The notes under the pieces are model-generated. The model ran no database searches. It saw only the letters and a list, made by a program, of their open reading frames with translations, and had not been told where the DNA came from. This document shows positions 5,634 to 21,203 of a stretch of 39,746 nucleotides of DNA, piece after piece; positions within the stretch are counted from its first letter, which is position 1, and the number at the start of each line of letters is the position of its first letter. Origin of the DNA: Gammaproteobacteria bacterium (GTDB lineage Bacteria > Pseudomonadota > Gammaproteobacteria > Methylococcales > Methylomonadaceae); contig JAJRUF010000095.1 of NCBI GenBank assembly GCA_024277935.1, positions 1 to 39,746 of the forward strand. The letters run 5' to 3'. The position numbers were made by a program, and so were the translations under genes.

Positions 5634-6122
5634 TCAACGCTTACTTTTTGCCTTATATCCTTTCTCTCTAATTGCAATACTTGCAGTAATTTTTGTACAT
5701 AAAGACCCATCAGCCAAATAATAAGCATATTCAAAAATTGGAGTACTCCGTCCCTTTTGCCTTAACTCCATCCGAATTGAAGCTTCTTGCTCTGAGGTCA
5801 TAGCAAAACGTAATTCTAAATCAGTAACTCCTTCATATTTAAAATCAAGGTGTAATGACCGAGTCCATACCGAATAACCTGGAAAAACTTTAATACAAAC
5901 CATAGCTGCTATCGGATCGGCAAGACAAGCTTGAAAGCCTCCAAACATACTTCCGCCTGTATTGGTTGCCACCCAGCTGTGAGGCAATAAAATCTTAAGT
6001 TCTCGCCAACAGGGGGATAACTCCAGCACTTTAGGCCTGATTAACCAAAAGGCTGGATACCATTCAATCCGTTGCTTATCAGTTAAGCAACGAGCATTCC
6101 AAATTAATTTTCGTAAATTCAA
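5634..6122 (-). CDS. DUF4442/PaaI-like hotdog thioesterase family protein
   Basis: Hotdog-like pattern NTGGSMFGGFQACLADPIAAMVC and LHLDFKYEGVTDLELRF. Confidence 0.6.
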   Translation of the reverse strand: MNLRKLIWNARCLTDKQRIEWYPAFWLIRPKVLELSPCWRELKILLPHSWVATNTGGSMFGGFQACLADPIAAMVCIKVFPGYSVWTRSLHLDFKYEGVTDLELRFAMTSEQEASIRMELRQKGRSTPIFEYAYYLADGSLCTKITASIAIREKGYKAKSKR

Positions 6123-8761
6123 AGCAGACTTTTACTAGCAACTTCAAAAACATCCTTTGAAATACCATCAACACTCACAATCCGCTCCAATTCCTTTTTA
6201 ATGAGTGCTTGCCTATTTTTATCAAACCGTTTCCATTGCGTTAAAGCGGCAACCATTCTGGATGCAACTTGGGGGTTAATACTATTTAGTGCAATGACTT
6301 GATCAGCTAAAAATCGGTACCCTTGTCCATTTGCGGCATTAAAATGTAATGGGTTTGCCTGACTAAAAGCACCAATTAATGAACGAACCCTGTTTGGGTT
6401 GGTTAATTCAAAAGCTGGATGTTTCAATAAGGTTTGAACAATAGAAAAAGTATCATCGGCACTACTACTGGCTTGTATAGTAAACCATTTATCAATGACT
6501 AGAGCTTCATTCTTCCACTGCTGATAAAAACTTTCCAGGCATTCAGCCTTGGCCGAGGATTTACTTTCAACAATGACAGATAATGCGGCCATTTGATCTG
6601 TCATATTTTTTGCTGAAGCAAATTGCTGTTCTGCCCGCTTATAGCTTTCTGCTGTTTCCAGTGCTGTCAAATAAGCCAAACAGACATTTTTAATACGCCT
6701 TCTACCTATAGCACCTGCATCAAACTGTCCTGATTCATCTTTATGGTACCGCTGATATAAATCAGTAAACTGATTTTGTAATTTCTCCGCCAAACCTTTT
6801 CTAACAAACTCTCTAGCTTGATGAATGGCATCAACATCAACCACATCCATTTGTCCGGCTAAATAATCTTCTGCAGGTAAACCCAATAATAATGAAAAAT
6901 ATGATAAGTCTTCCCAAGAATATTCTATAACATTGGCATAAGCCTCAACTAATAAAGGGTTAAGTTGTAGCTTTTGGCCTTGTTGAATATCTGCAATTAA
7001 ACCAAAAATAACTTGGCTACACATTTTTTGCCCAGCATCCCAGCGATTAAAAGTATCACCATCATGACTTAATAAAAAAGCCAACTCAGCTAAACTTTGT
7101 TGCTTATTTAGCCGCACTGGAGCAGAAAAGTCTCGCAATAATGAAACAACTGGTTTGCTATCTAACTGCTCAAACACAAAGTCCTGCTGTTCCTGAAGCA
7201 ACTCCAAAACAATTTCATCTGTCTCAAGGCCATCCATACAAATTTTTGCTATTGAGCCATCACTGGCTAGCAGACCCAATTTAACAGGAATATGCAATGG
7301 TTTTTTAGTCTCTTGCCCCGCCGTTGCTACACAACTTTGCTTTAAAGTGAGCGTGAGTGTTTTATCTTGCTCACTATACGCTTCCGTTGCTTCCAAAACA
7401 GGGGTTCCTGCCTGTGAATACCAACGCCTAAATAAACTTAAATCAATATTTGCAGCAGCCTCCATTGCATTAATAAAATCTTCACAGGTGACTGCTTGAC
7501 CATCATGGCGCTGAAAATATAAATCACTGCCTTTTCTAAACTTATCTCCACCCAGTAAGGTATGAATCATACGAACCACTTCTGCACCTTTTTCATACAC
7601 CGTTAGGGTATAAAAATTATTAATTTCTATATACGATTCTGGTCGAATAGGATGAGATAAAGGCCCTGCATCTTCAGCAAACTGCCTGACTCTCAATAAT
7701 TTAACATCTTCAATTCTTTTAACAGCTTGAGAAGTTTGCTCCCCAGTAAATTGCTGATCTCGAAAAACAGTAAAACCTTCTTTTAAACTTAATTGAAACC
7801 AATCCCGACAGGTAATTCTATTACCCGTCCAATTATGAAAATATTCATGTCCTATAACACCCTCAATATGTTCATAATCCGTATCAGTTGCTGTATCAGG
7901 TCTTGCCAACACAAATTTTGTATTAAAAATATTCAGCCCCTTGTTTTCCATTGCCCCCATATTAAAATGACTAACAGCAACAATCATATATAAATCCAGA
8001 TCATACTCACGTCCATAAGTCTGCTCATCCCATTGCATTGCATTCTTAAGAGATTGCATCGCATGCTCACACTTATCTATATCATGCGATTCAACAAAGA
8101 TTTGCAACTTAATTTCACGCCCGGTCATCGTAGTAAATGAGCCTTGAATACATTCCAACTGCCCAGCAACCAAGGCAAATAGATAACAGGGTTTTTTAAA
8201 AGGATCTTCCCAAGTGACCCAATGTCGATTATTTTGTAATTCACCTTCTGCCACTTTATTACCATTTGATAATAAAATAGGATACTTATCTTTATCTCCA
8301 ATCAATGTTGTTTTAAACAGAGTCATAACATCAGGACGATCAAGAAAATAGGTTATTTTTCTAAAACCTTCTGCTTCACATTGAGTACAAAGCATAGTCT
8401 TTGAAAGGTATAAACCTTCAAGTGAGGTATTAGTTTTAGGGTTAATAGTATTTTCAATCGCTAATATAAAGACTGAGTCTTGTGGCATACCCTTTATTGT
8501 TAAAGATTCTGTATTTTGCTGATATTGTGTTTGCGTTAATGCGACACCATCCATCGCGACACTTAGCAATTCCAGATTTTCACCCTGTAAAACTAAAGTT
8601 GCACACTCTACTTTACTATTTGGATTTTTTTGTAGCCTAAGTTTTGAAACAACGCGAGTTCTTGACTCATCTAAAATAACAGTCAGTTCAACACTTTTAA
8701 TTAAGAACTCAGGAACCGTATAGTCTTTTAAGTAGATTGTTTGAGGTTTTGTATCTTGCAT
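6119..8761 (-). CDS. pepN: Aminopeptidase N
   Basis: GAMENKGLNIFN, HEYFHNWTGNRITCRDWFQLSLKEG Zn site, length 880 aa. Confidence 0.97.
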   Translation of the reverse strand: MQDTKPQTIYLKDYTVPEFLIKSVELTVILDESRTRVVSKLRLQKNPNSKVECATLVLQGENLELLSVAMDGVALTQTQYQQNTESLTIKGMPQDSVFILAIENTINPKTNTSLEGLYLSKTMLCTQCEAEGFRKITYFLDRPDVMTLFKTTLIGDKDKYPILLSNGNKVAEGELQNNRHWVTWEDPFKKPCYLFALVAGQLECIQGSFTTMTGREIKLQIFVESHDIDKCEHAMQSLKNAMQWDEQTYGREYDLDLYMIVAVSHFNMGAMENKGLNIFNTKFVLARPDTATDTDYEHIEGVIGHEYFHNWTGNRITCRDWFQLSLKEGFTVFRDQQFTGEQTSQAVKRIEDVKLLRVRQFAEDAGPLSHPIRPESYIEINNFYTLTVYEKGAEVVRMIHTLLGGDKFRKGSDLYFQRHDGQAVTCEDFINAMEAAANIDLSLFRRWYSQAGTPVLEATEAYSEQDKTLTLTLKQSCVATAGQETKKPLHIPVKLGLLASDGSIAKICMDGLETDEIVLELLQEQQDFVFEQLDSKPVVSLLRDFSAPVRLNKQQSLAELAFLLSHDGDTFNRWDAGQKMCSQVIFGLIADIQQGQKLQLNPLLVEAYANVIEYSWEDLSYFSLLLGLPAEDYLAGQMDVVDVDAIHQAREFVRKGLAEKLQNQFTDLYQRYHKDESGQFDAGAIGRRRIKNVCLAYLTALETAESYKRAEQQFASAKNMTDQMAALSVIVESKSSAKAECLESFYQQWKNEALVIDKWFTIQASSSADDTFSIVQTLLKHPAFELTNPNRVRSLIGAFSQANPLHFNAANGQGYRFLADQVIALNSINPQVASRMVAALTQWKRFDKNRQALIKKELERIVSVDGISKDVFEVASKSLL

Positions 8762-9368: not shown

Positions 9369-9489
9369 GTAGCTAGAATAAATAACCCACCCAAATTATA
9401 ACACTGAAGGCTGACAAAAGACCAACAAGGCTATTTTTTACTGGTTGCCTTAGCTTACAAAATTATTTTAATATTTGAACCAATAAGAA

Positions 9490-9546
9490 TTGGAAGTGAG
9501 ACTTTAGTCTCGCTTCATTCGTGCGAGGCTAAAGCCTCACTTCCAA
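9490..9546. repeat. REP-like palindrome (copy 1)
   Basis: TTGGAAGTGAGACTTTAGTCTCGC-ttcattcgt-GCGAGGCTAAAGCCTCACTTCCAA; right arm recurs exactly at 39661-39685. Confidence 0.85.
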
Positions 9547-9572
9547 ATATTAGGCCTTTTATTCTCTCTTAC

Positions 9573-10004: not shown

Positions 10005-10309
10005 TATCTGCCCCTCTTTAGATTATTTTTACTCATATAAAATGCAATATTAGCACTCTCTCACCTATGACTTTACTTATTTTTAGAAAGCAATTCAACA
10101 GTCGAGTGAAATTTAATTACACGAAGTATAAACTGACCACAGTTTAATTTTAAATTTATGCCACAATAGTGGTTTAGCCTTACCCCTTTGAAAAAAAAGT
10201 AGTTGAAGGATGTTTTATAGAATAGGGGAGCAAAAATCAAACATGGTTGTATACAATCCATATTGAAAAAATTTGATTTACTTCCTCCTTATAATTTTTT
10301 ATTACTGTG

Positions 10310-10504
10310 CTATTCAGAGTAATCAAAGAAACTAGCTTTTAATTTACCATCTGTTTTTAAAGCCATGCTCACCATTTTGAACTTCAATAATTCTCTATGG
10401 TGCTTTAATTTGTCTTTAGGAATTTTTTTATGACCATGATAGAACTCAAGCCATAAGCTCTTTATTCCAGCCTTTCCCTTACTTTTACTGATAGTTACCT
10501 TCAT
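10310..10504 (-). pseudogene. Truncated, internally deleted copy of the N-terminus of the 16782-17918 integrase
   Basis: MKVTISKSKGKAGIKSLWLEFYHGHKKIPKDKLKHHRE... vs MKITINKRKAKAGTLSLRLEFYHGYTKTPEGKIKHHRE...; 106-bp deletion at a 7-bp repeat, then a +1 indel and premature stop after KASFFDYSE. Confidence 0.9.
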
Positions 10505-10537
10505 TTCTCACCACCTTTACAATACTTTTTGTATTAC

Positions 10538-10572: not shown

Positions 10573-10887
10573 TTATTCAAACATTTCCAATAATGTGGAG
10601 TGCCATAGTTTGATCTCTATTTCTCCCATTCTTTCTAGTAAACGCCTTTTGTCTACTGAACCCATTTGATCTAACAATAATCGAGAAAGACGGTTATTAA
10701 AAACTATTTCAGGCCTACAGCCTAAAGACTGACCTTTGCTTGTTAAAGGTGCAATGATAACCCTTGGCAAAGCATCATTTAAATCATCAGGTGATACAAC
10801 CAATGCAGGGCGTGTTTTCTTAATCTCTGAGCCAAAAGTAGGATCGAGGTTAACCCAATAAACCTCCCCACACTTTACCATTGCCAT
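10573..10887 (-). CDS. mazF: MazF/PemK-family endoribonuclease toxin
   Basis: CGEVYWVNLDPTFGSEIKKTRPALVVSPDDLN, VIIAPLTSKG, LLDQMGSVDKRRL. Confidence 0.9.
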   Translation of the reverse strand: MAMVKCGEVYWVNLDPTFGSEIKKTRPALVVSPDDLNDALPRVIIAPLTSKGQSLGCRPEIVFNNRLSRLLLDQMGSVDKRRLLERMGEIEIKLWHSTLLEMFE

Positions 10888-11359: not shown

Positions 11360-11884
11360 ATGTCTTTCAGAATTTTTGCAAGTGGTACAGGCCACTTCCG
11401 CTACATCAAAACTGGAATCGATTTTGGCGATGTTTATAATTTAGAGGATTGCCTAAACCGAATGATGTCGGTAAGTGCTGGAGCCAGATCATTCGTTCAA
11501 GACGAGGTTACTGAAGCCGCTACGCCGGATTCCCCTGTGCAGAAGACGTTGAATGCCATGGGACAGATTGTTGCTCTTGATTTATTGAGGACTGCAGTGA
11601 CCATCACACTTGCTGAAATGAGCCCAATCCATATCCACCTTTCGGCTTTTCAATCAAATTTGTTGATGGATGATGTAGAGGGACGTTCGCTATTACTTTC
11701 ATCGCTTGATGATGCCTCGGTAAGAGACTTTTTACGGGCCATCACCCCAGTGCTGGATGCAACAGGAATGCGAACCTTTGGTGTTTTAACTGCCATTGCC
11801 ACAGTTTTTTCTAATTTTTCAGTGGCCGGAGGACGAGCGCCAGTAGACGGCAGTTATCGACTGAATATCCAACTCTCGCATTAA
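11360..11884 (+). CDS. Orphan hypothetical protein (174 aa), compositionally GC-richer than neighbours
   Basis: Intact ORF; no recognised family. Confidence 0.5.
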   Translation: MSFRIFASGTGHFRYIKTGIDFGDVYNLEDCLNRMMSVSAGARSFVQDEVTEAATPDSPVQKTLNAMGQIVALDLLRTAVTITLAEMSPIHIHLSAFQSNLLMDDVEGRSLLLSSLDDASVRDFLRAITPVLDATGMRTFGVLTAIATVFSNFSVAGGRAPVDGSYRLNIQLSH

Positions 11885-12045: not shown

Positions 12046-12064
12046 GTTACTTTCCTATACAGAA
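12046..12064. repeat. Distal att copy of the element
   Basis: GTTACTTTCCTATACAGAA; complement reads TTC TGT ATA GGA AAG TAA = FCIGK*, the MnmE C-terminus. Confidence 0.8.
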
Positions 12065-12106
12065 AGTACAAAAAGATATAATAACAAATACTTATAATTA
12101 GAATAT

Positions 12107-12126
12107 TGTAAATTTGGTGTAAAAAA
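12107..12126. repeat. Candidate integrase arm-type site, left end
   Basis: TGTAAATTTGGTGTAAAAAA shared with the other end and the relic. Confidence 0.6.
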
Positions 12127-12205
12127 GTTGATTTATTACTAAACTAGCTTTATTTTACTGACTTATGTTATATTGTAGCCCAATTGGGTAAAACTAGGTA
12201 GTGTT

Positions 12206-12463
12206 ATGAAATCAGCAACCATTAGAGCAAGAATAGAACCTGAATTAAAAGCTAATGTAGAAAATATCTTAGTTTCTTTAGGACTTAATACCAGTGATGC
12301 TATTACAATATTTTACAAACAAATTGAACTGCATAATGGCTTACCTTTTAAAGTAGAAATTCCTAATTCAGAAACCAGAAAAGTATTGGATGAATCAGAC
12401 CGTGGGGAAAACCTTATAGAATGCAAAGACGCTCAAGATATGTTTGATAAACTGGGTATCTAA
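12206..12463 (+). CDS. RelB/DinJ-family antitoxin
   Basis: MKSATIRARIEPELKANVENILVSLGLNTSDAITIFYKQIELHNGLPF. Confidence 0.9.
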   Translation: MKSATIRARIEPELKANVENILVSLGLNTSDAITIFYKQIELHNGLPFKVEIPNSETRKVLDESDRGENLIECKDAQDMFDKLGI

Positions 12464-12735
12464 TGCCTTTAATACCTAAAATAACAAAAGGCTTTCAAAA
12501 GGATATGAAGCGAGCCACCAAGCGTGGTAAAGATACTCATAAAATCAAAACAGTCATGCAGTTACTAATTGGCAAGCAAGCCCTAAATAAAAAATACAAA
12601 GACCACTCACTAATAGGTGATTATTCAGGGCATAGAGAGTGCCATATAGAACCAGACTGGCTATTAATCTACAAAATTGATGATGAATATATCAGTTTTG
12701 AGAGAACAGGTACTCATTCAGACCTTTTTAAATAA
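12463..12735 (+). CDS. RelE/YafQ-family toxin
   Basis: FQKDMKRATKRGKD, KYKDHSLIGDYSGHRECHIEPDWLLIYKID; overlaps antitoxin stop. Confidence 0.92.
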   Translation: MPLIPKITKGFQKDMKRATKRGKDTHKIKTVMQLLIGKQALNKKYKDHSLIGDYSGHRECHIEPDWLLIYKIDDEYISFERTGTHSDLFK

Positions 12736-12738
12736 ATA

Positions 12739-12978
12739 CTATAAGCCCGTTAAATAGCGATTAAATAAAGCTCCCCATACTTCAATATCATTTGTTTTTA
12801 TTTCAGGGTTACCTTTTAATAAATCAGCATAATCTAAACTTAAACTGAATACCTTGCAAAAACGGGTCATTTCTGTATTAGGTTCTAAAACTAATAAATC
12901 AACCTCCATTTTAAAGTTCAATATTAGCTCGTGTAGTGGGGCTGGCTTACAGTCATTGACAAACCGCTTAACCAGCAT
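12739..12978 (-). CDS. Hypothetical protein (79 aa), element-encoded
   Basis: Intact ORF adjacent to the following minus-strand gene in the same block. Confidence 0.4.
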   Translation of the reverse strand: MLVKRFVNDCKPAPLHELILNFKMEVDLLVLEPNTEMTRFCKVFSLSLDYADLLKGNPEIKTNDIEVWGALFNRYLTGL

Positions 12979-12980
12979 AA

Positions 12981-13367
12981 TTAAAACCCATAACTATCTA
13001 GTAAGCTATCCTCTTCAGACTGCTTTTGTAATGTAGTTGGGTTGCTTGAACCTATCCTGCCCTGCTTTAGCCTTGTTAGCTCCAACACCTTAAAAGCGGC
13101 TGTTATTTTATCCCTGTGAGGGGCTTCATTATCTACCAATACACTTTCAATGGTTTCTAGTGCAACACTGGTTAAGCTTCTTAATTTATCTTGCTGAGCT
13201 TCAAGGTTAGCATTTAGCAAGCTGTTTAATTCTGCCTTGAAATTAAAATCAGCCTTATATCTGCTTATTGTTTCTGGGGCTAATTTTAGCTGTTCTGCTA
13301 CTTCTTTATTATTTAGCCCCTCTGATAATAGGATAATGGCTTTATGGTGCTGTGGGGTTAATTTCAT
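12981..13367 (-). CDS. TerS-like / phBC6A51-type helix-turn-helix protein
   Basis: LTPQHHKAIILLSEGLNNKEVAEQLKLAPETISRYKADFNFKAELNSLL resembles phage small-terminase HTH. Confidence 0.55.
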   Translation of the reverse strand: MKLTPQHHKAIILLSEGLNNKEVAEQLKLAPETISRYKADFNFKAELNSLLNANLEAQQDKLRSLTSVALETIESVLVDNEAPHRDKITAAFKVLELTRLKQGRIGSSNPTTLQKQSEEDSLLDSYGF

Positions 13368-13436
13368 GATGATTTGTGAGCTTTATTGAGAGTTAATAAG
13401 CCGTTTTTCTGTATGGTGTATTTTTTAGGTTACCTT

Positions 13437-13904
13437 TTAATTATTTTTCTGCTGATTGCTCACCGTTTTAAAATGCTGAGTACATACATTTAGTTCTATA
13501 CCTTGCCAACTAGCTTTCAACTTTGCTGGTTTTGTACACCTTGCCCCTGTTTTAATTAATACTTGGCAATCATGCTCTTTATGCTTTAACTGTTCATATC
13601 GAGCTTCAAGGCTTCTAATTTCAGATTTTAACAATCGGGTTTCACTTTCTAGGCTTACCGCTTTTCTATGTTCATCATCATATTTTTGCACCTGCTTCAA
13701 GCTGGCATTATTAGCTATACTTTTACCGTTCAGAACATTAAACAGGTTTTGCAGAATATCAGGGCTTAAACTGCCTTTTTTGAGACTGCCTTTTAATTGA
13801 ATGACAAAAGGTAAAATAATACTGTTAATTTTAACCGTGGCTTGGGGTGGTTTTCTCTTGTTTTCTGGTAGTGCTTTCCTGCCCCTTGTTTCTTGTTTAG
13901 CCAT
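13437..13904 (-). CDS. Coiled-coil protein with C-terminal C-x8-C..C-x2-H zinc-binding-like motif
   Basis: Basic N-term GRKALPENKRKP; coiled coil; HDCQVLIKTGARCTKPAKLKASWQGIELNVCTQH. Confidence 0.5.
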   Translation of the reverse strand: MAKQETRGRKALPENKRKPPQATVKINSIILPFVIQLKGSLKKGSLSPDILQNLFNVLNGKSIANNASLKQVQKYDDEHRKAVSLESETRLLKSEIRSLEARYEQLKHKEHDCQVLIKTGARCTKPAKLKASWQGIELNVCTQHFKTVSNQQKNN

Positions 13905-13965
13905 ATCAGTTCCAAAATAATAAAAAGGTAACCTTATTATAGTTTATTAAAAGGTTACCTGTAAA

Positions 13966-14889
13966 TTATCTATAAAACTCTCTTGCTTGCTTAACTTTCA
14001 TATCAAGCTCTGTAATTAGCTCTGACTCTTCAGTTAAAATCTTATCATTGCTAAGGTCTAAAATTTTATCTTTAAGTCTTTTTGCCTGCCCCCTATTGTT
14101 TAATTTACCCTCTGCCCTTGACCTGTCTATTATTCTTAAAAATTCCTGTTCTCCTCCATAAGCTTCCAGCCCTTTTAGCATTAACTGCCTTCCCAGTAAT
14201 TTAGCATTATTCATAGTTTCTTTAGTAAAGCTGTGTAATCTGATTTTATTAACTTGCTGGTAATGATTAAACCATCCATCAACCATTTTCATATAAACAC
14301 CTTCATCATATAGATTTTGAGCTGTAAACATTGGCATATCAAGAAGCTCATGAGGTTTTTTCATATATCTAAATTCATACCTTAATACTTGTTTGTTATT
14401 CCATGCTTCAGGCAATTTTAGCCCTCTATGCTTGCCTTCAGCCACCTTATTATAAAACACTAACTGTTTCTTTGAATTACTGTAATAAATACTTTTAGGC
14501 TTTTCTTGTCTTTCTAATCTGGGGCAATCACCCAATAAATCATAATAGGCTTGGTGTTTATGCTTCATTATTAGATTTTCTGCTATATCCACCCTTTTTA
14601 CTCCTGCTTTATTTACATTAATACCCAACTTATCAGAAAGGCTTTCAATGGCTTCTTCTGTCCCTTTTCTTGTGAGAGTCTGGAAATTATCCCCTAAATA
14701 ATACTTGGCTAAACTTCCCTTTAGACTGATACCATAATTATAAATTGAAACTTTGTAATTACCAAGATACCCAAAACATGAAACTTTTGCTGTAGTGAGG
14801 GAATATACTTCACTCACCCTTTCCAGATTGTTAAGAATTGCTGTTGATGTGTGGCTTTGTGGTAGCCATAAATTGACTGTATCTAACAT
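13966..14889 (-). CDS. Phage/plasmid replication initiation protein (GPII/X, Phage_CRI-like)
   Basis: MLDTVNLWLP start, VKRVDIAENLIMKH, KQLVFYNKVAE, VLRYEFRYMKK pattern of this family. Confidence 0.7.
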   Translation of the reverse strand: MLDTVNLWLPQSHTSTAILNNLERVSEVYSLTTAKVSCFGYLGNYKVSIYNYGISLKGSLAKYYLGDNFQTLTRKGTEEAIESLSDKLGINVNKAGVKRVDIAENLIMKHKHQAYYDLLGDCPRLERQEKPKSIYYSNSKKQLVFYNKVAEGKHRGLKLPEAWNNKQVLRYEFRYMKKPHELLDMPMFTAQNLYDEGVYMKMVDGWFNHYQQVNKIRLHSFTKETMNNAKLLGRQLMLKGLEAYGGEQEFLRIIDRSRAEGKLNNRGQAKRLKDKILDLSNDKILTEESELITELDMKVKQAREFYR

Positions 14890-14944
14890 TAGACTGTAAC
14901 CAAAACTGTTACAAAATACACTTACTATAGAAGAATGGATAAAT

Positions 14945-14971
14945 AGCCCTGAAAATCAACCTAACAGGGCT
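14945..14971 (-). terminator. Hairpin (AGCCCTG/CAGGGCT) upstream of rep: terminator or candidate origin hairpin
   Basis: AGCCCTGaaaatcaacctaaCAGGGCT located between the 162-aa ORF and rep. Confidence 0.45.
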
Positions 14972-14987
14972 GTTTATTATTTCTAAA

Positions 14988-15476
14988 TTAAGATGCTTTT
15001 TGATAGTTAAAAAAAGGCATTGCCTGCTGTTTGATTTGCTCTATTTCTTCATCCAACTCACCATCAATAAATTGCTGAAAATATTGCTTCTTTAAGTGTT
15101 TGCCATTCTTGATAAGAAACATATCAATACTGCTTAAATCATTACTCAGTTTGAACAGTAAACAATCATTGCCATAATCACCATATCCATATTCTGAATA
15201 CTCAAGATTTGGAATAAAAATGGAGGATAGATTTTTTGAACCATGAGTTAAGCCTATATCTGATATTCTTTTTGCTTTAGCAGTTACATAATTTTCAGGG
15301 GCAGAACAATAAAAATACATCTGCCCTTTTCTATTAACAAACTGGTTGAGTGGTTTATCATCCAATAAGTTAAAATGCCTTGTGCAATCAAGCCTAGCTG
15401 ATGATTTTATTTTCCACTCTTTCTTAATATCTGCAGGTAATTTTTGAAGTTGATAATAGGCGGTTATATGGCTCAT
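14988..15476 (-). CDS. Hypothetical protein (162 aa), element-encoded
   Basis: Intact ORF between HTH protein and rep; no recognised family. Confidence 0.5.
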   Translation of the reverse strand: MSHITAYYQLQKLPADIKKEWKIKSSARLDCTRHFNLLDDKPLNQFVNRKGQMYFYCSAPENYVTAKAKRISDIGLTHGSKNLSSIFIPNLEYSEYGYGDYGNDCLLFKLSNDLSSIDMFLIKNGKHLKKQYFQQFIDGELDEEIEQIKQQAMPFFNYQKAS

Positions 15477-15832
15477 TTAGAACCCCCTACTAAGTGATTG
15501 ACTGCTTTTTGTTCCAGTTCATCGGCTGAATAGACTTTATTCTTTAAAACCCATTTATCTAGCTCTGAGCGTTTAAAGTAAATCTTTTTCCCAGACGGTT
15601 TGTAATGAGGTATTAAACCCTGTGAAGTCAGTTTATAAAGATGTGAACGGCTGTGGTTTATGTATGAAGCAGTTTCATTAAAATCAAGAGTATCTTTTGT
15701 AGCTGTAAATACTTCGGCTAAAGTTGATTTTAAATCTACTACTTCTTGATGTAATGTTTCTAGTGTTATTGCTTGTGGCATTTTTTGTCCTAATATTGAT
15801 AAGTAAGTAATCAATATAGGGATGAAAGGCAA
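15473..15832 (-). CDS. Excisionase-like helix-turn-helix protein, Bacteroidota-type
   Basis: LDFNETASYINHSRSHLYKLTSQGLIPHYKPSGKKIYFKRSELDKWVLKNK; real start probably internal Met (MPQAITLE). Confidence 0.8.
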   Translation of the reverse strand: MPFIPILITYLSILGQKMPQAITLETLHQEVVDLKSTLAEVFTATKDTLDFNETASYINHSRSHLYKLTSQGLIPHYKPSGKKIYFKRSELDKWVLKNKVYSADELEQKAVNHLVGGSK

Positions 15833-15858
15833 TTATTAGAATTAACAGAATATTACCG

Positions 15859-16779
15859 TTAATGAAGTGATAATATTTCCTTAATAATATTATCAATTAT
15901 CAGTTTAGGATTATCAGTTATTTGCCTAGCCCCTGATTTTAGGCTATCCCCCTTAACACACTTTCCTTTTACTAAAAATATTCCCCCTGCAACTTTCCAA
16001 TTTTGATGTGTAAAAACAATACCCTTATTTTTAATTTCTTGAATAAAGTAACCTAATTGGCTTTGTAGTCCAGTCCATACAATAGAACCTTCACTATTTA
16101 AAAAGGCATTTTCAAAATCTTCTAATGTTATTTCTGCTATTAGCTTATTATCAATTAGGTCTTTATGTAGTGCTGGTATTGTTTTTTTTGGGTTTAGAAC
16201 TTGAAAGCCCTGATTGTTTTCAAATATTTTTTCAGGCTCACCCTTTTCTATTAACTCTTCTAAATATTCTCTAATCCATAACAACGCTTGAACCCTTGCA
16301 GAAAGCCACCATTTTTTATTATTTGGGTTATCAAGGTTTTCAGGTTCTAAACTCACACTACCTAAAGACAATATATCTAAATGCCCTTTAGTTAAAAAAG
16401 AATCAAAATTACCCCTAAGAAGCATTAAATACTGTTTAAATATTTCCTCTGGTAATAGTTCAACCTTAAACAATGGTTCAGAACTTCTAAAAATATGCTC
16501 TTCAATATTTACTGCCATTGATAGACTTTCTCCACATTCAAAGAATCTATCCAGCTCTCTTAATTCCATTTGTGCTAATTTATTTAGGTTAATCGACCTA
16601 ACACAAAAAGCATAAATACCTTTATGGATGCTATCAAAATCATTCTTTGCACATTGTAACCATTGTTTTAAAACCCCATTATCATCTTCACTATAATCAC
16701 CCATCATTGTATTTTTTAAAGTAAAGCGGCTTTCTAAACTTCTATCTCTTGAATTAAATAAAGGCTCTCTATCTGACAT
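15859..16779 (-). CDS. Hypothetical protein (306 aa), element cargo or regulator
   Basis: Intact ORF directly downstream of integrase; C-terminal IVWTGLQSQLGYFIQEIKNKGIV segment; no family confidently recognised. Confidence 0.5.
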   Translation of the reverse strand: MSDREPLFNSRDRSLESRFTLKNTMMGDYSEDDNGVLKQWLQCAKNDFDSIHKGIYAFCVRSINLNKLAQMELRELDRFFECGESLSMAVNIEEHIFRSSEPLFKVELLPEEIFKQYLMLLRGNFDSFLTKGHLDILSLGSVSLEPENLDNPNNKKWWLSARVQALLWIREYLEELIEKGEPEKIFENNQGFQVLNPKKTIPALHKDLIDNKLIAEITLEDFENAFLNSEGSIVWTGLQSQLGYFIQEIKNKGIVFTHQNWKVAGGIFLVKGKCVKGDSLKSGARQITDNPKLIIDNIIKEILSLH

Positions 16780-16781
16780 GA

Positions 16782-17918
16782 CTAAAGCCCTATACTTGGT
16801 ATTTTGTGCATTGCTATCTTTCTTTGTTCATCAATAATATCTGCATAAATCTGGGTAGTTTTTAACTCACTATGCCCCAATAACTTACTAACTGTATAAA
16901 TATCAGTACCCATTGTTAGCTGAAGAACTGCAAAAGTATGCCTAGCACAATGAAAAGTTATATCCTTGGTAATACCTGCTCTCATACACCATTTAGTTAT
17001 TTCTGCATTGTGGTAAGCATCATATTTAAGCTTTTTAAAGACCCTTTGCTCTGGTTCATCTTCTACACCTAATAACTGATAAGCCTGCTCTGAAATATCA
17101 AGATATTGTAAAGTTTCAGTTTTTTTATGGTGAAAAGTGACCCTATAACTATCATTAAAAAGCTGGACTTCTGACCATGCTAATTTTTGAATATCTGACC
17201 ACCTAAGCCCTGTCAAACAACTAAATAGAAAAGCCCTTTTCAAAACTTCATATTTACATTCAGCTTGATTTAAAGCCTTAACTTCATCCAGTGTTAAATA
17301 TTCCCTTTTATTCTGTACTGGCTTAATTGATTTAACTTTGGTGATTGGGTTTTTTACAATAATTTCATCTTTAAAGGCTTGGTTCAAAGCGGCTCTAAAT
17401 TTATTAAAATAGGTGCTTGCTGAATTAGAGCTTAATTTGGTTTTACTTTTTGTGAGTGGGGTGGTTTGGAGGTAGTCCTTAAACCCCTCTACAAATTCAG
17501 GGGTAATCTGTGCAAAGGTCAAATCACCCTTGCCATGAAATGATTTAAGGTGATTTAGCGTGCTGTACCATATAGAATAATTTGATTTACTGCCTGTTTG
17601 TAACTTCTCATTACTCAACTTTTCAAAATAATCAAAGAAACTAGCTTTTAATTTCCCCCCTGATTTAAAGCTATGCTCACCATTTTGAGCTTCAATAATT
17701 CTCTTTGCTCTAATCGCTTCTGCTAATTGTAAGGATTGTTTGTTGTGCTGTTTTTCTGCTGGGGTTTTTGGAGTGGCATAAATAAAGCCATTAAGGTTTT
17801 CATATTCTCTATGGTGCTTTATTTTGCCTTCAGGGGTTTTAGTGTAACCATGATAGAACTCAAGCCTAAGGCTGAGTGTCCCTGCTTTAGCCTTTCTTTT
17901 ATTGATTGTTATCTTCAT
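16782..17918 (-). CDS. Tyrosine recombinase/integrase, SAM-like N-terminal domain, Bacteroidota-type
   Basis: TGLRWSDIQ (R), HHKKTE (K), HCARHTFA (HxxR), LLGHSELKTTQIYADI (H...Y): full catalytic set. Confidence 0.96.
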   Translation of the reverse strand: MKITINKRKAKAGTLSLRLEFYHGYTKTPEGKIKHHREYENLNGFIYATPKTPAEKQHNKQSLQLAEAIRAKRIIEAQNGEHSFKSGGKLKASFFDYFEKLSNEKLQTGSKSNYSIWYSTLNHLKSFHGKGDLTFAQITPEFVEGFKDYLQTTPLTKSKTKLSSNSASTYFNKFRAALNQAFKDEIIVKNPITKVKSIKPVQNKREYLTLDEVKALNQAECKYEVLKRAFLFSCLTGLRWSDIQKLAWSEVQLFNDSYRVTFHHKKTETLQYLDISEQAYQLLGVEDEPEQRVFKKLKYDAYHNAEITKWCMRAGITKDITFHCARHTFAVLQLTMGTDIYTVSKLLGHSELKTTQIYADIIDEQRKIAMHKIPSIGL

Positions 17919-17920
17919 TT

Positions 17921-17974
17921 TTTTACACCATTTTTACACCAAGTTAGGCTTTAGTGTAAATTAGGTGTAAAAAA
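17921..17974. repeat. Candidate integrase arm-type site cluster, right end
   Basis: TTTTACACCA, TTTTTACACCA, GTGTAAATTAGGTGTAAAAAA. Confidence 0.6.
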
Positions 17975-18078
17975 TAGTAAAGAAAAGGATAATTAAAAGA
18001 AGCTATAAACAAGACAATCTATCTAAATCATTGTTTTTGTTTTCTTATTTTATCTTATTTTTGGATGATATTTTTAAG

Positions 18079-18097
18079 GTTACTTCCCTATACAAAA
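18079..18097. repeat. att copy overlapping mnmE 3' end
   Basis: GTTACTTCCCTATACAAAA; complement encodes FCIGK* of MnmE. Confidence 0.8.
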
Positions 18098-19423
18098 CGA
18101 ACTAAAAATACGCCCTAGCAAATCATCCGAACTAAATGTACCGGTAATTTCTGCTAAACTATTTTGGGCTTGTCTTAAATCTTCGGCGACTAATTCACCC
18201 GCCTGATGTTGTAATTGCTCCCGTGCATTTTCTACACTTTTTTGGCCTTGGGTTAAAGCATCAATATGCCTTTTTCTAGCAATAAAAACATCATCTGTTT
18301 CACTATTAAAACCCACTGTTTGTTTAAGGTGATTAATTAATAACGCCATCCCAATACCCTTTTTTACTGAAAGATATATTTGGCTTCCCTGTTCATTTTC
18401 TATTATTTCTGGTTCTATACCTAATAAATCAATTTTGTTATAAACTTTAGTTATATCTAAATCAGTAGGCAGTACTTTCATCACTGAGTCTATCTCAGGA
18501 TCTGTGCTATCAATTAATAATAAAACTTTATCCGCTTGTTTAATTTCTTCATGCGCTCGGCGAATGCCTTCTTTTTCAACTAGATTATCACTTTCTCTTA
18601 ATCCTGCAGTATCAATAATATGAAGGGGCATACCATCAATTTGGATTCTTTCTTTTAGAATATCTCGGGTTGTCCCTGCAATATCTGTCACTATTGCTGC
18701 TTCATGTCCTGCCAATGCATTGAGTAAACTTGATTTTCCTGCATTTGGTTTTCCAGCTAAAACCACTGTCATTCCATCTCTTAATAAACGACCTTGCTGA
18801 GCAGTTTTTAGAATTTTTTGTATTCTTGTCGATAGGTTTATAATTTTATTTTCAACCACTCCATCGGTTAAAAAATCAATTTCTTCATCAACAAAGTCTA
18901 TTGCCGCTTCTACATATATTCTAAGTTCAGTAAGCTCTTCAACTAATTCATTGACTTGTTTAGAAAAAACACCTTGCATAGATTTTTGGGCCGATCGTAC
19001 AGATTGCTCTGTACTACTTTCTATTAAATCTGCAACAGCTTCTGCTTGCGCTAAATCTAGTTTATTATTGAGGAAAGCTCTTTCTGTAAACTCTCCTGGG
19101 TTAGCTAACCTTGCCCCTAGTTTCACCACTCTTTTTAACAGCATACCCAAAACCACGGCTCCACCATGCCCCTGTAGTTCAATAGTATCTTCACCTGTAT
19201 AGGAGGCAGGATTGGGGAAATATAGTAGGATGCCTGAATCTATTATAGAGTCACCTTCATCTCTAAATGAAGTAAAACACGCTTGTCTTGAAACAGGTGT
19301 TTTTTGCGTTATTTTCTGAGCAATTTCAAGAGCTGAAGGTCCTGAAATTCTGATAATACCCACACCTCCATTTCCGGGAGGTGTTGCAATGGCAGCAATG
19401 GTATCTTGTATAATTTGTTGCAC
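18080..19423 (-). CDS. mnmE: tRNA modification GTPase MnmE (TrmE)
   Basis: GKPNAGKSSLLNAL, DIAGTTRD, C-terminal FCIGK. Confidence 0.98.
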   Translation of the reverse strand: MQQIIQDTIAAIATPPGNGGVGIIRISGPSALEIAQKITQKTPVSRQACFTSFRDEGDSIIDSGILLYFPNPASYTGEDTIELQGHGGAVVLGMLLKRVVKLGARLANPGEFTERAFLNNKLDLAQAEAVADLIESSTEQSVRSAQKSMQGVFSKQVNELVEELTELRIYVEAAIDFVDEEIDFLTDGVVENKIINLSTRIQKILKTAQQGRLLRDGMTVVLAGKPNAGKSSLLNALAGHEAAIVTDIAGTTRDILKERIQIDGMPLHIIDTAGLRESDNLVEKEGIRRAHEEIKQADKVLLLIDSTDPEIDSVMKVLPTDLDITKVYNKIDLLGIEPEIIENEQGSQIYLSVKKGIGMALLINHLKQTVGFNSETDDVFIARKRHIDALTQGQKSVENAREQLQHQAGELVAEDLRQAQNSLAEITGTFSSDDLLGRIFSSFCIGK

Positions 19424-19499: not shown

Positions 19500-21203
19500 T
19501 TACTTTTCTGCTTCGATTTGCTTAGTAATATACCACTGTTGAAGGATTGATAGTGTATTGTTACATACCCAGTAAAGTACTAAACCCGAAGGGAAGAACA
19601 AGAAAAAGACGGTAAAAATTATTGGAAACATTTTCATCACTTTCGCTTGTAATGGATCAATCGGTGCAGGATTTAAGCTTTGCTGAATCTTCATGGAAAT
19701 ACCCATAAGAATTGGCAAAATAAAGAAAGGGTCTTGTGCTGATAAATCTTGTACCCATAATATAAAGTCTGCTTGACGTATCTCAACTGTTTCAATCAAT
19801 ACCCAGTATAAAGAAATAAATACCGGTATTTGTACTATGATAGGAAGACACCCCCCCATTGGGTTTACTTTTTCCTTTTTGTACATTGCCATCATTTCTG
19901 TATTAAAACGCTGTCTGTCATCGGCAAATTTTTCTTGCAAGGCTTTAAGACGAGGCTGAATTTTACGCATTTTAGCCATCGAACGATAACTTGCTTGAGA
20001 TAACTTAAAGAACAGTAATTTAATACATAAAGTCACACCCATAATAGCGAAACCCCAGTTACCAACATGATCATGTATTTGGTTAAGTAACCAGTAAATT
20101 GGTTTTCCTACAACTGTTAACCAACCATAATCTACTGTTAGCTCTAGCCCTTTTGCTACCTTTTCCATCATTGGCTGAATTTTTGGTCCAGCAAATAAAT
20201 GTGCAGTAAAAATTTTATCAGTATGTGGTGCAACATCAACTGCTGGAGAATAAGAACCAATAACATAATGAGAATCTTTTAATTTTTTAGTATAAAAGTG
20301 ATTCTCTTGGTCTGCAGCTGGAACCCAAGCTGTTGCAAAATAATGTTGAATCATGGCACTCCAGCCACCAACAGTCGAAATACTTAGGTTTTCGTCTTCC
20401 ATGTCGTTATATTTTATCTTTTGATACTTTTCTTCTTCTGTATAAACTACACCACCGGCATAGGTTCTAATAAAAGTATTACCTTTATCATCTACATAAG
20501 GTATTCTCAAAAGTTGACTATACTGCCTACCCATCCAGTTTTGATTAGAATCATTACTTATTTTTTGGTCAACAGCAATATCGTAACTACCACGCGTAAA
20601 AGTAAAAACCTTAGTGACAACTAAACCTTGATTATTAGTCCATGTTAAAGGAACTGATAAGGTATTTTGTCCTTCAGTTAATTCATATTTTTGTTTTTCT
20701 GCCGTGTAAAAAGCATGATGGTCAGGACCTGCGACAGAACCACTGCTGGCAATTAAACCACTTTGCGCTAGAAAAAGCTTTTCTGTACTACTATCTAATA
20801 AGCGAATAGGAGAAAAATCTTTTTTCGGTGGCTCTAAGCCAACTAAAGCATACATTTTATTAACGACAGTATTTATTTTTTCATGAGGATACTGTAGTAA
20901 ATCTAAATTACGTATTGTCCCACCTTTAGTATCAACCTCAACTGAAAATACATCCGTTTTTATAGTGATAATATTATCAGCATGAATACCTAAAACAGGC
21001 ACTGCTCCTAAGTTTTGACCAGCACTCGAAATAGCTGAGTTATTTTTCCCAGTTCTTGGTAAGTCCTCCCCAGAATCCATAACAACAGGTTGTTCTAATG
21101 TTGCAACTACAGGCTTGGGACCATAGTCTATTTGCCATTGTTCCCAAAGCATATAAGAAACCATTGCAAAAGCAATGACTAGTAGAAATCTAATGTTATC
21201 CAT
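19500..21203 (-). CDS. yidC: Membrane protein insertase YidC
   Basis: MDNIRFLLVIAFAMVSYMLWEQW; conserved C-terminal insertase domain. Confidence 0.98.
   Translation of the reverse strand: MDNIRFLLVIAFAMVSYMLWEQWQIDYGPKPVVATLEQPVVMDSGEDLPRTGKNNSAISSAGQNLGAVPVLGIHADNIITIKTDVFSVEVDTKGGTIRNLDLLQYPHEKINTVVNKMYALVGLEPPKKDFSPIRLLDSSTEKLFLAQSGLIASSGSVAGPDHHAFYTAEKQKYELTEGQNTLSVPLTWTNNQGLVVTKVFTFTRGSYDIAVDQKISNDSNQNWMGRQYSQLLRIPYVDDKGNTFIRTYAGGVVYTEEEKYQKIKYNDMEDENLSISTVGGWSAMIQHYFATAWVPAADQENHFYTKKLKDSHYVIGSYSPAVDVAPHTDKIFTAHLFAGPKIQPMMEKVAKGLELTVDYGWLTVVGKPIYWLLNQIHDHVGNWGFAIMGVTLCIKLLFFKLSQASYRSMAKMRKIQPRLKALQEKFADDRQRFNTEMMAMYKKEKVNPMGGCLPIIVQIPVFISLYWVLIETVEIRQADFILWVQDLSAQDPFFILPILMGISMKIQQSLNPAPIDPLQAKVMKMFPIIFTVFFLFFPSGLVLYWVCNNTLSILQQWYITKQIEAEK

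Follow-up and report, generated by a model that had tools for sequence, protein, structure and literature searches.

A 6.03-kb element (positions 12046 to 18097) lies next to mnmE in the 39,746-nucleotide stretch of DNA analyzed here (the window) and is bounded by direct repeats of the mnmE 3' end. We read this element as an integrative rolling-circle phage satellite of the PICMI/PICI kind, with a probability of roughly one half (0.52). This reading was the best of the explanations tested and is partly supported by gene content, synteny and homology. Since the element carries an integrase of its own, a rolling-circle replication initiator (Rep) and a likely packaging protein, it probably parasitizes other viruses. 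The window is the entire contig C24 of a draft genome (3.28 Mb, 280 contigs, about 91% complete). The host is probably a methanotroph, since an ammonia/methane monooxygenase subunit (PF02461) is encoded in the genome.

From mnmE outward, the minus strand of the element carries int, X, an AlpA-like gene, ORF162, rep, ORF155, the gene for a 128-aa helix-turn-helix (HTH) protein (HTH128) and ORF79 (Table 1). The RelB/DinJ and YafQ pair is located on the plus strand between ORF79 and the distal repeat. All genes of the element are open reading frames, Int and Rep have intact active sites, and neither att copy is missing. The first-pass annotation had described a Rep, a TerS-like HTH protein, an integrase and an excisionase without structural genes; all of these were found, the 307-aa and 128-aa ORFs at the coordinates it had given, and no virion or structural phage family was matched in Pfam and PHROG searches of all genes of the element. 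In Pfam and PHROGs, X, ORF155, ORF162 and ORF79 had no convincing match to any known family. The search of the ORFs for defense genes yielded marginal PADLOC matches alone (E values of 0.005 to 0.007).

Table 1. Features of the element and of the adjoining mnmE region, in window coordinates
Feature	Position	Strand	Basis or remark
att repeat, distal	12046-12064	plus	17 of 19 bases the same as in the mnmE copy
RelB/DinJ antitoxin and YafQ/RelE toxin pair	12206-12735	plus	Cargo; absent from L021 and L029
ORF79, small protein after HTH128	12739-12978	minus	Related protein in L003 (40%), others weakly alike
HTH128, TerS-like, 128 aa	12981-13367	minus	PHROG, profile alignment, predicted model
ORF155, coiled-coil-like	13437-13904	minus	No family; absent from L021
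Sigma70-like promoter (11/12)	13926-13965	minus	Before ORF155; two AGGTWACCT palindromes overlap
Rep, Phage_CRI/G2P rolling-circle initiator, 307 aa	13966-14889	minus	PF05144; predicted catalytic Tyr146
Candidate control/origin region	14890-14987	minus	Upstream of rep; conserved CTATAGTAAGTGTA block and hairpins
ORF162	14988-15476	minus	Conserved; no known family; 4-bp overlap with alpA
AlpA/excisionase-like HTH_17 protein	15473-15832	minus	Pfam, 1.2e-12
X, 306 aa	15859-16779	minus	2 bp after int; no family; 27% to X of L021
int, tyrosine integrase, 378 aa	16782-17918	minus	PF00589, 6.6e-21, plus SAM_5
Inverted TTTTTTACACC/GGTGTAAAA repeats	17919-17974	.	Repeat search
att repeat, mnmE end	18079-18097	plus	Equals mnmE end; codes FCIGK-stop on minus strand
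mnmE	18080-19423	minus	ORF list
yidC-like gene	19500-21203	minus	ORF list

The 307-aa protein had been taken for a GPII/CRI rolling-circle initiator, and this assignment was confirmed. Rep matched Pfam family PF05144 (Phage_CRI) with an E value of 1.9e-17 and 64.2 bits, against a curated cut-off of 21.7, and no other Pfam family was matched at E values up to 1. The published motifs of Rep_trans/Phage_CRI proteins are N' (D), I (RxD), II (T/SxY), III (YxKxxE, with the catalytic Tyr) and IV (LxRxE) (PMC5714925; PMC4797284). All five are kept in Rep and its aligned homologues (nine proteins), in which D3, R99, D101, Y135, Y146, K148, E151, L169, R170 and E172 are invariant. Tyr146 is predicted to be the nucleophile. 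The best Foldseek match of the predicted Rep model (pLDDT of 78) was the staphylococcal initiator RepDE (4cwc; probability of 1.00, E value of 2.3e-5). An HUH or a Rep_trans fold had been expected; the RepDE match agrees with the latter, and the HUH fold was ruled out, as the best match is a Rep_trans protein. TBP folds ranked next after RepDE, which is expected because the topological likeness of Rep and TBP was noted by Carr et al. (PMC4797284). Judged by its sequence and predicted model, Rep has an intact rolling-circle active site of the Rep_trans/CRI type, without an HUH fold. A search of 50,697 phage records with Rep gave no match at E values up to 1e-3, and no relatives of Rep were found in 301 genomes of the same order or in a class sample of 369 genomes.

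The 128-aa protein had been described as resembling small terminases. Single-sequence searches were ambiguous between TerS and LuxR/GerE: the two best PHROG matches of HTH128 were terminase small subunits (1.0e-6 and 2.4e-6), and its HTH matched LuxR/GerE in Pfam (6.4e-6). Transcription factors are not the only group into which the protein falls. A relative in another genome of the same family (L003, 66% identical) had stronger PHROG TerS matches (2.5e-10 and 6.7e-10) and matched phage proteins in five records; among these are three distinct proteins annotated as TerS, each encoded immediately ahead of TerL and portal. In profile alignments with hhalign, the HTH128 family aligned with two phage TerS over residues 10 to 102, comprising the HTH and a helical hairpin (E value of 1.6e-11), which bears out the resemblance. 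In the control, the LuxR profile aligned at residues 2 to 37 only, the HTH. In the predicted HTH128 model (pLDDT of 73), an HTH is followed by a long helical hairpin and a tail. The fold search yielded nothing significant: LuxR HTH domains led and the phage protein 2ao9 ranked 25th, none with an E value better than 0.4. The alternative that HTH128 is a LuxR regulator only is weakened, as LuxR aligns with the HTH alone and TerS with the HTH and hairpin. TerS is favored because of the phage matches of the L003 protein, the TerS-versus-LuxR alignments and the HTH-hairpin-tail model, and HTH128 is, by remote homology, probably a TerS. No TerL gene was found in the element; the TerS-before-TerL order was seen in the phage relatives of HTH128 only.

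Genes like that for HTH128 also end primase-type integrative elements (L016 and L018). In L016 (1747-8261), a final TerS-like HTH gene is followed by the tRNA-Arg and rep helicase genes; L018 (3997-8790) comprises an integrase, a large primase-like protein and the HTH128-like gene at tRNA-Arg, and its HTH protein had no PHROG match. A second relative (59%) is encoded in the same genome as the window, on contig C233 (L015, 321-1534), where the genes of a small basic and a 69-aa protein flank it. It lies near the contig end, and no Rep was seen, as the contig starts there. At L014 (9251-10160), a relative (66%) has a second conserved protein just upstream, with no integrase or Rep seen nearby, and is a remnant inside a secretin/pilus-type gene cluster. 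The class sample yielded two isolated distant matches to HTH128 and nothing more.

The att sequence (GTTACTTYCCTATACARAA) is present in two copies, where 0.10 would be expected by chance. One more copy of the TTTTTTACACC/GGTGTAAAA type was found at 12104-12126, close to the distal end, and a motif resembling the GGTGTAAAA-type repeats occurs at both ends of the Methylophaga element described below. These repeats are likely integrase arm sites. The integrase carries GLRWSD, HCARHT, LGHS and QIYAD motifs and is 75% identical to the Methylophaga (L021) integrase and 52% identical to the Marinilabiliaceae (L029) integrase, both at mnmE. The first-pass annotation did not recognize the combination of such an element with an mnmE-targeting integrase. 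In the literature searched (most subscription papers were outside it), no satellite was found whose initiator is of the CRI or Rep_trans type. As an integration target, mnmE (trmE) is not new: it is an established site, used by SGI1 at the trmE 3' end and by the two relatives above. SGI1 shares this site but differs in being mobilized by IncC plasmids and far larger, and no gene homologous to its backbone was recognized in the window element.

Outside the distal repeat, the window contains a broken N-terminal part of a related integrase (10267-10530), with stretches 77 to 93% identical to int, which is possibly a remnant of an earlier insertion. It is adjoined by a MazF/PemK-type toxin gene (10573-10887). 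Pfam, PHROGs and PADLOC all gave no match for a 174-aa ORF at 11360-11884, likewise outside the repeat. A strong inverted repeat at 9484-9552, with 30-nt arms that are 87% complementary and a 9-nt loop, is of the terminator or repeat-element type.

Conservation between the window and Methylophaga is strong in the 98 bp ahead of rep. A TAAG-containing block recurs upstream of rep in other relatives, with TAAG as its sole invariant part. Clear GTAAC/GTTAC arms occur in the window and in L021, L022 and L023, though not in the L025-L029 group, and a hairpin common to all nine rep-upstream regions was unsupported. The region might be the replication origin, which is a guess. The AGGTWACCT palindrome occurs three times (13926-13934, 13952-13960 and, after ORF155, 13427-13435), against 0.27 expected in the window, and its placement suggests an operator of the ORF155-HTH128-ORF79 operon. 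The conserved start of AlpA is probably the ATG at 15781.

A scan of the genome collection revealed nine loci related to the window element, in Methylophaga and Bacteroidota. The element of Methylophaga sp. NORP33 (L021) has the same core at mnmE, with 5.0 kb between its repeats. It is without ORF155 and the toxin pair and ends with HTH128 and a 75-aa protein. Homology of its rep (6001-6920) extends to residue 307, and the reading frame ends earlier; the gene is either frame disrupted or affected by an assembly error. In Marinilabiliaceae ANBcel2 (L029), int, X, alpA, ORF162, rep and one small gene occupy 4.86 kb at mnmE. The gene order is unchanged in the other Bacteroidota loci, and a distal tRNA gene is present in L022, L024, L025 and L027. 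The AlpA-like gene is conserved in seven of the nine compared loci, the alpA-ORF162-rep block recurs across the relatives, and the overlap of alpA and ORF162 is exactly 4 bp in all eight relatives having both genes. The family thus spans Gammaproteobacteria and Bacteroidota, including one genome assigned to Bacteroides; a more distant int-X-HTH-Rep set was found on a Parabacteroides plasmid.

The gene after rep in L022, L024, L025, L026 and L029 encodes a small GGRxxGTPNK or DUF5681-like protein, which L027 and L028, also of Bacteroidota, are without. For the L025 protein, the closest phage match (2e-8) is encoded in MW202462 immediately ahead of the terminase; the DUF5681-like match of the L024 protein in Bacteroides phages has no terminase gene next to it. 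Homology between this small Bacteroidota protein and HTH128 was rejected (hhalign probability of 0.1). From these comparisons we tentatively propose, with the odds somewhat against it, a cross-phylum family of very small satellites. Its members would share the block of alpA, ORF160 and CRI Rep and replicate by a true rolling circle. Two unrelated TerS-type proteins, one in the gammaproteobacterial and one in the Bacteroidota branch, would have been recruited after rep to redirect tailed-phage packaging.

Among known systems, the element resembles the PICMIs of Vibrionaceae (PMC10803314), which are about 6 kb long and comprise int, a variable neighbor gene, alpA, one ORF and a replication gene, without capsid genes. 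PICMI115 (6,110 bp), for example, contains int, iolg, alpA, up1 and prim; RCR-like replication and packaging of a concatemer have been reported for it (PMC10803314). A PICMI is characterized by int and alpA within about 6 to 7 kb, and the window element carries both in 6.03 kb, with X as the variable gene at the place of iolg. The two differ in that PICMIs are defined by a DUF3987/DUF5906 primase and integration at fis, whereas the window element has a Phage_CRI Rep, lies at mnmE and contains a TerS-like gene. With Gram-negative and SaPI-type PICIs (PMC6092414), it shares int, an AlpA regulator, a replication module, the TerS found in some of them and the lack of virion genes. PICI membership is defined by int, an AlpA or Stl regulator and no virion genes, with terS optional, and the window element has this gene content. 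However, the pri-rep module of PICIs is absent from it, and no interference or capsid-remodeling genes were recognized. The element is also less than half the size of a PICI. With the M13 gpII/CRI and pT181-type RepD/RepDE initiators, Rep shares the PF05144 family, the motifs and the RepDE-like predicted fold, but it lies in a tyrosine-integrase element with no filamentous-phage gene beside it.

In the proposed mechanism, a helper phage would switch on AlpA, and Int with AlpA would excise a circle at the mnmE repeats, leaving mnmE intact. Rep would nick the origin, for which the region just upstream of rep is the candidate, and generate many or concatemeric copies. HTH128 would recognize element DNA and steer the large terminase of the helper to pack it, and the RelB/YafQ pair would stabilize the integrated copy. 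In a Gram-negative PICI, expression of alpA requires the helper phage rather than SOS (PMC6092414); SOS induction alone may therefore be a poor test of the element. No phage or conjugative helper is in sight, because the draft host genome (about 91% complete) contains neither a TerL of the PBSX type, to which that search was limited, nor VirB4/TrbE (PF03135).

Two other explanations remain as rivals. The element could be a self-contained integrating rolling-circle plasmid, with Int and AlpA integrating and excising it, Rep maintaining the circle, HTH128 regulating copy number or the operon, and transfer being passive. The LuxR/GerE-like HTH domain, the palindromes at the promoter before ORF155-HTH128, which point to local regulation, a toxin-antitoxin pair as on plasmids and the related set on the Parabacteroides plasmid are consistent with this. 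However, the alignment of HTH128 with TerS takes in its second, helical half, its phage relatives precede TerL, and TerS-like genes also end primase-type integrative elements such as L016, so we consider the plasmid unlikely. As an integrative mobilizable element (IME), it would use Rep as a relaxase that nicks an oriT for a conjugative mover, with HTH128 as an accessory DNA-binding protein. The Rep_trans fold does include the MOBT relaxases of Tn916 and ICEBs1 (PMC4797284) and of streptococcal IMEs (PMC7563843), and SGI1 uses mnmE/trmE as well. The MOBT/Rep_trans IMEs of Firmicutes (PMC7563843, PMC11389934) further resemble the window element in active site, integrative lifestyle and possession of an integrase. 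Their relaxases, however, consist of a Rep_trans domain fused to an HTH domain (PMC11389934). Rep is without this fusion and has no room for an N-terminal HTH, because the Asp of motif N' is residue 3, and its sole Pfam family is Phage_CRI. The element also has no coupling protein, the draft genome no VirB4/TrbE, and the TerS-like protein, a further difference from these IMEs, would be left unexplained. An IME is accordingly rather improbable.

The remaining explanations are weaker still. RS1 and TLC elements form single-stranded circles that are secreted by a filamentous helper phage, and a CRI Rep could make such circles here. Phage_CRI is the family of filamentous-phage initiators (PMC5714925), but a TerS-like protein would have no use in secretion, the element encodes a tyrosine integrase of its own and has an mnmE repeat instead of XerCD/dif, and the search of the phage records gave no match to Rep; a filamentous-phage satellite is very improbable. 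A decaying island without present mobility might be suggested by the broken integrase just outside the element and the shortened reading frame of the Methylophaga rep. It is contradicted by the open frames, the intact active sites and the two att copies of the window element, and we give it the least credence.

The PICI and PICMI satellites use primase-type replication modules. If the window element is a satellite of this kind, its filamentous-phage-type initiator would broaden the definition of a satellite, and a CRI Rep would offer an easy route to concatemers long enough for a large capsid. With few genes and a length of 4.9 to 6 kb, such elements would be near the minimum for a satellite. 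Since the family spans two phyla and includes a Bacteroides-assigned genome, culturable members that allow direct tests may exist.
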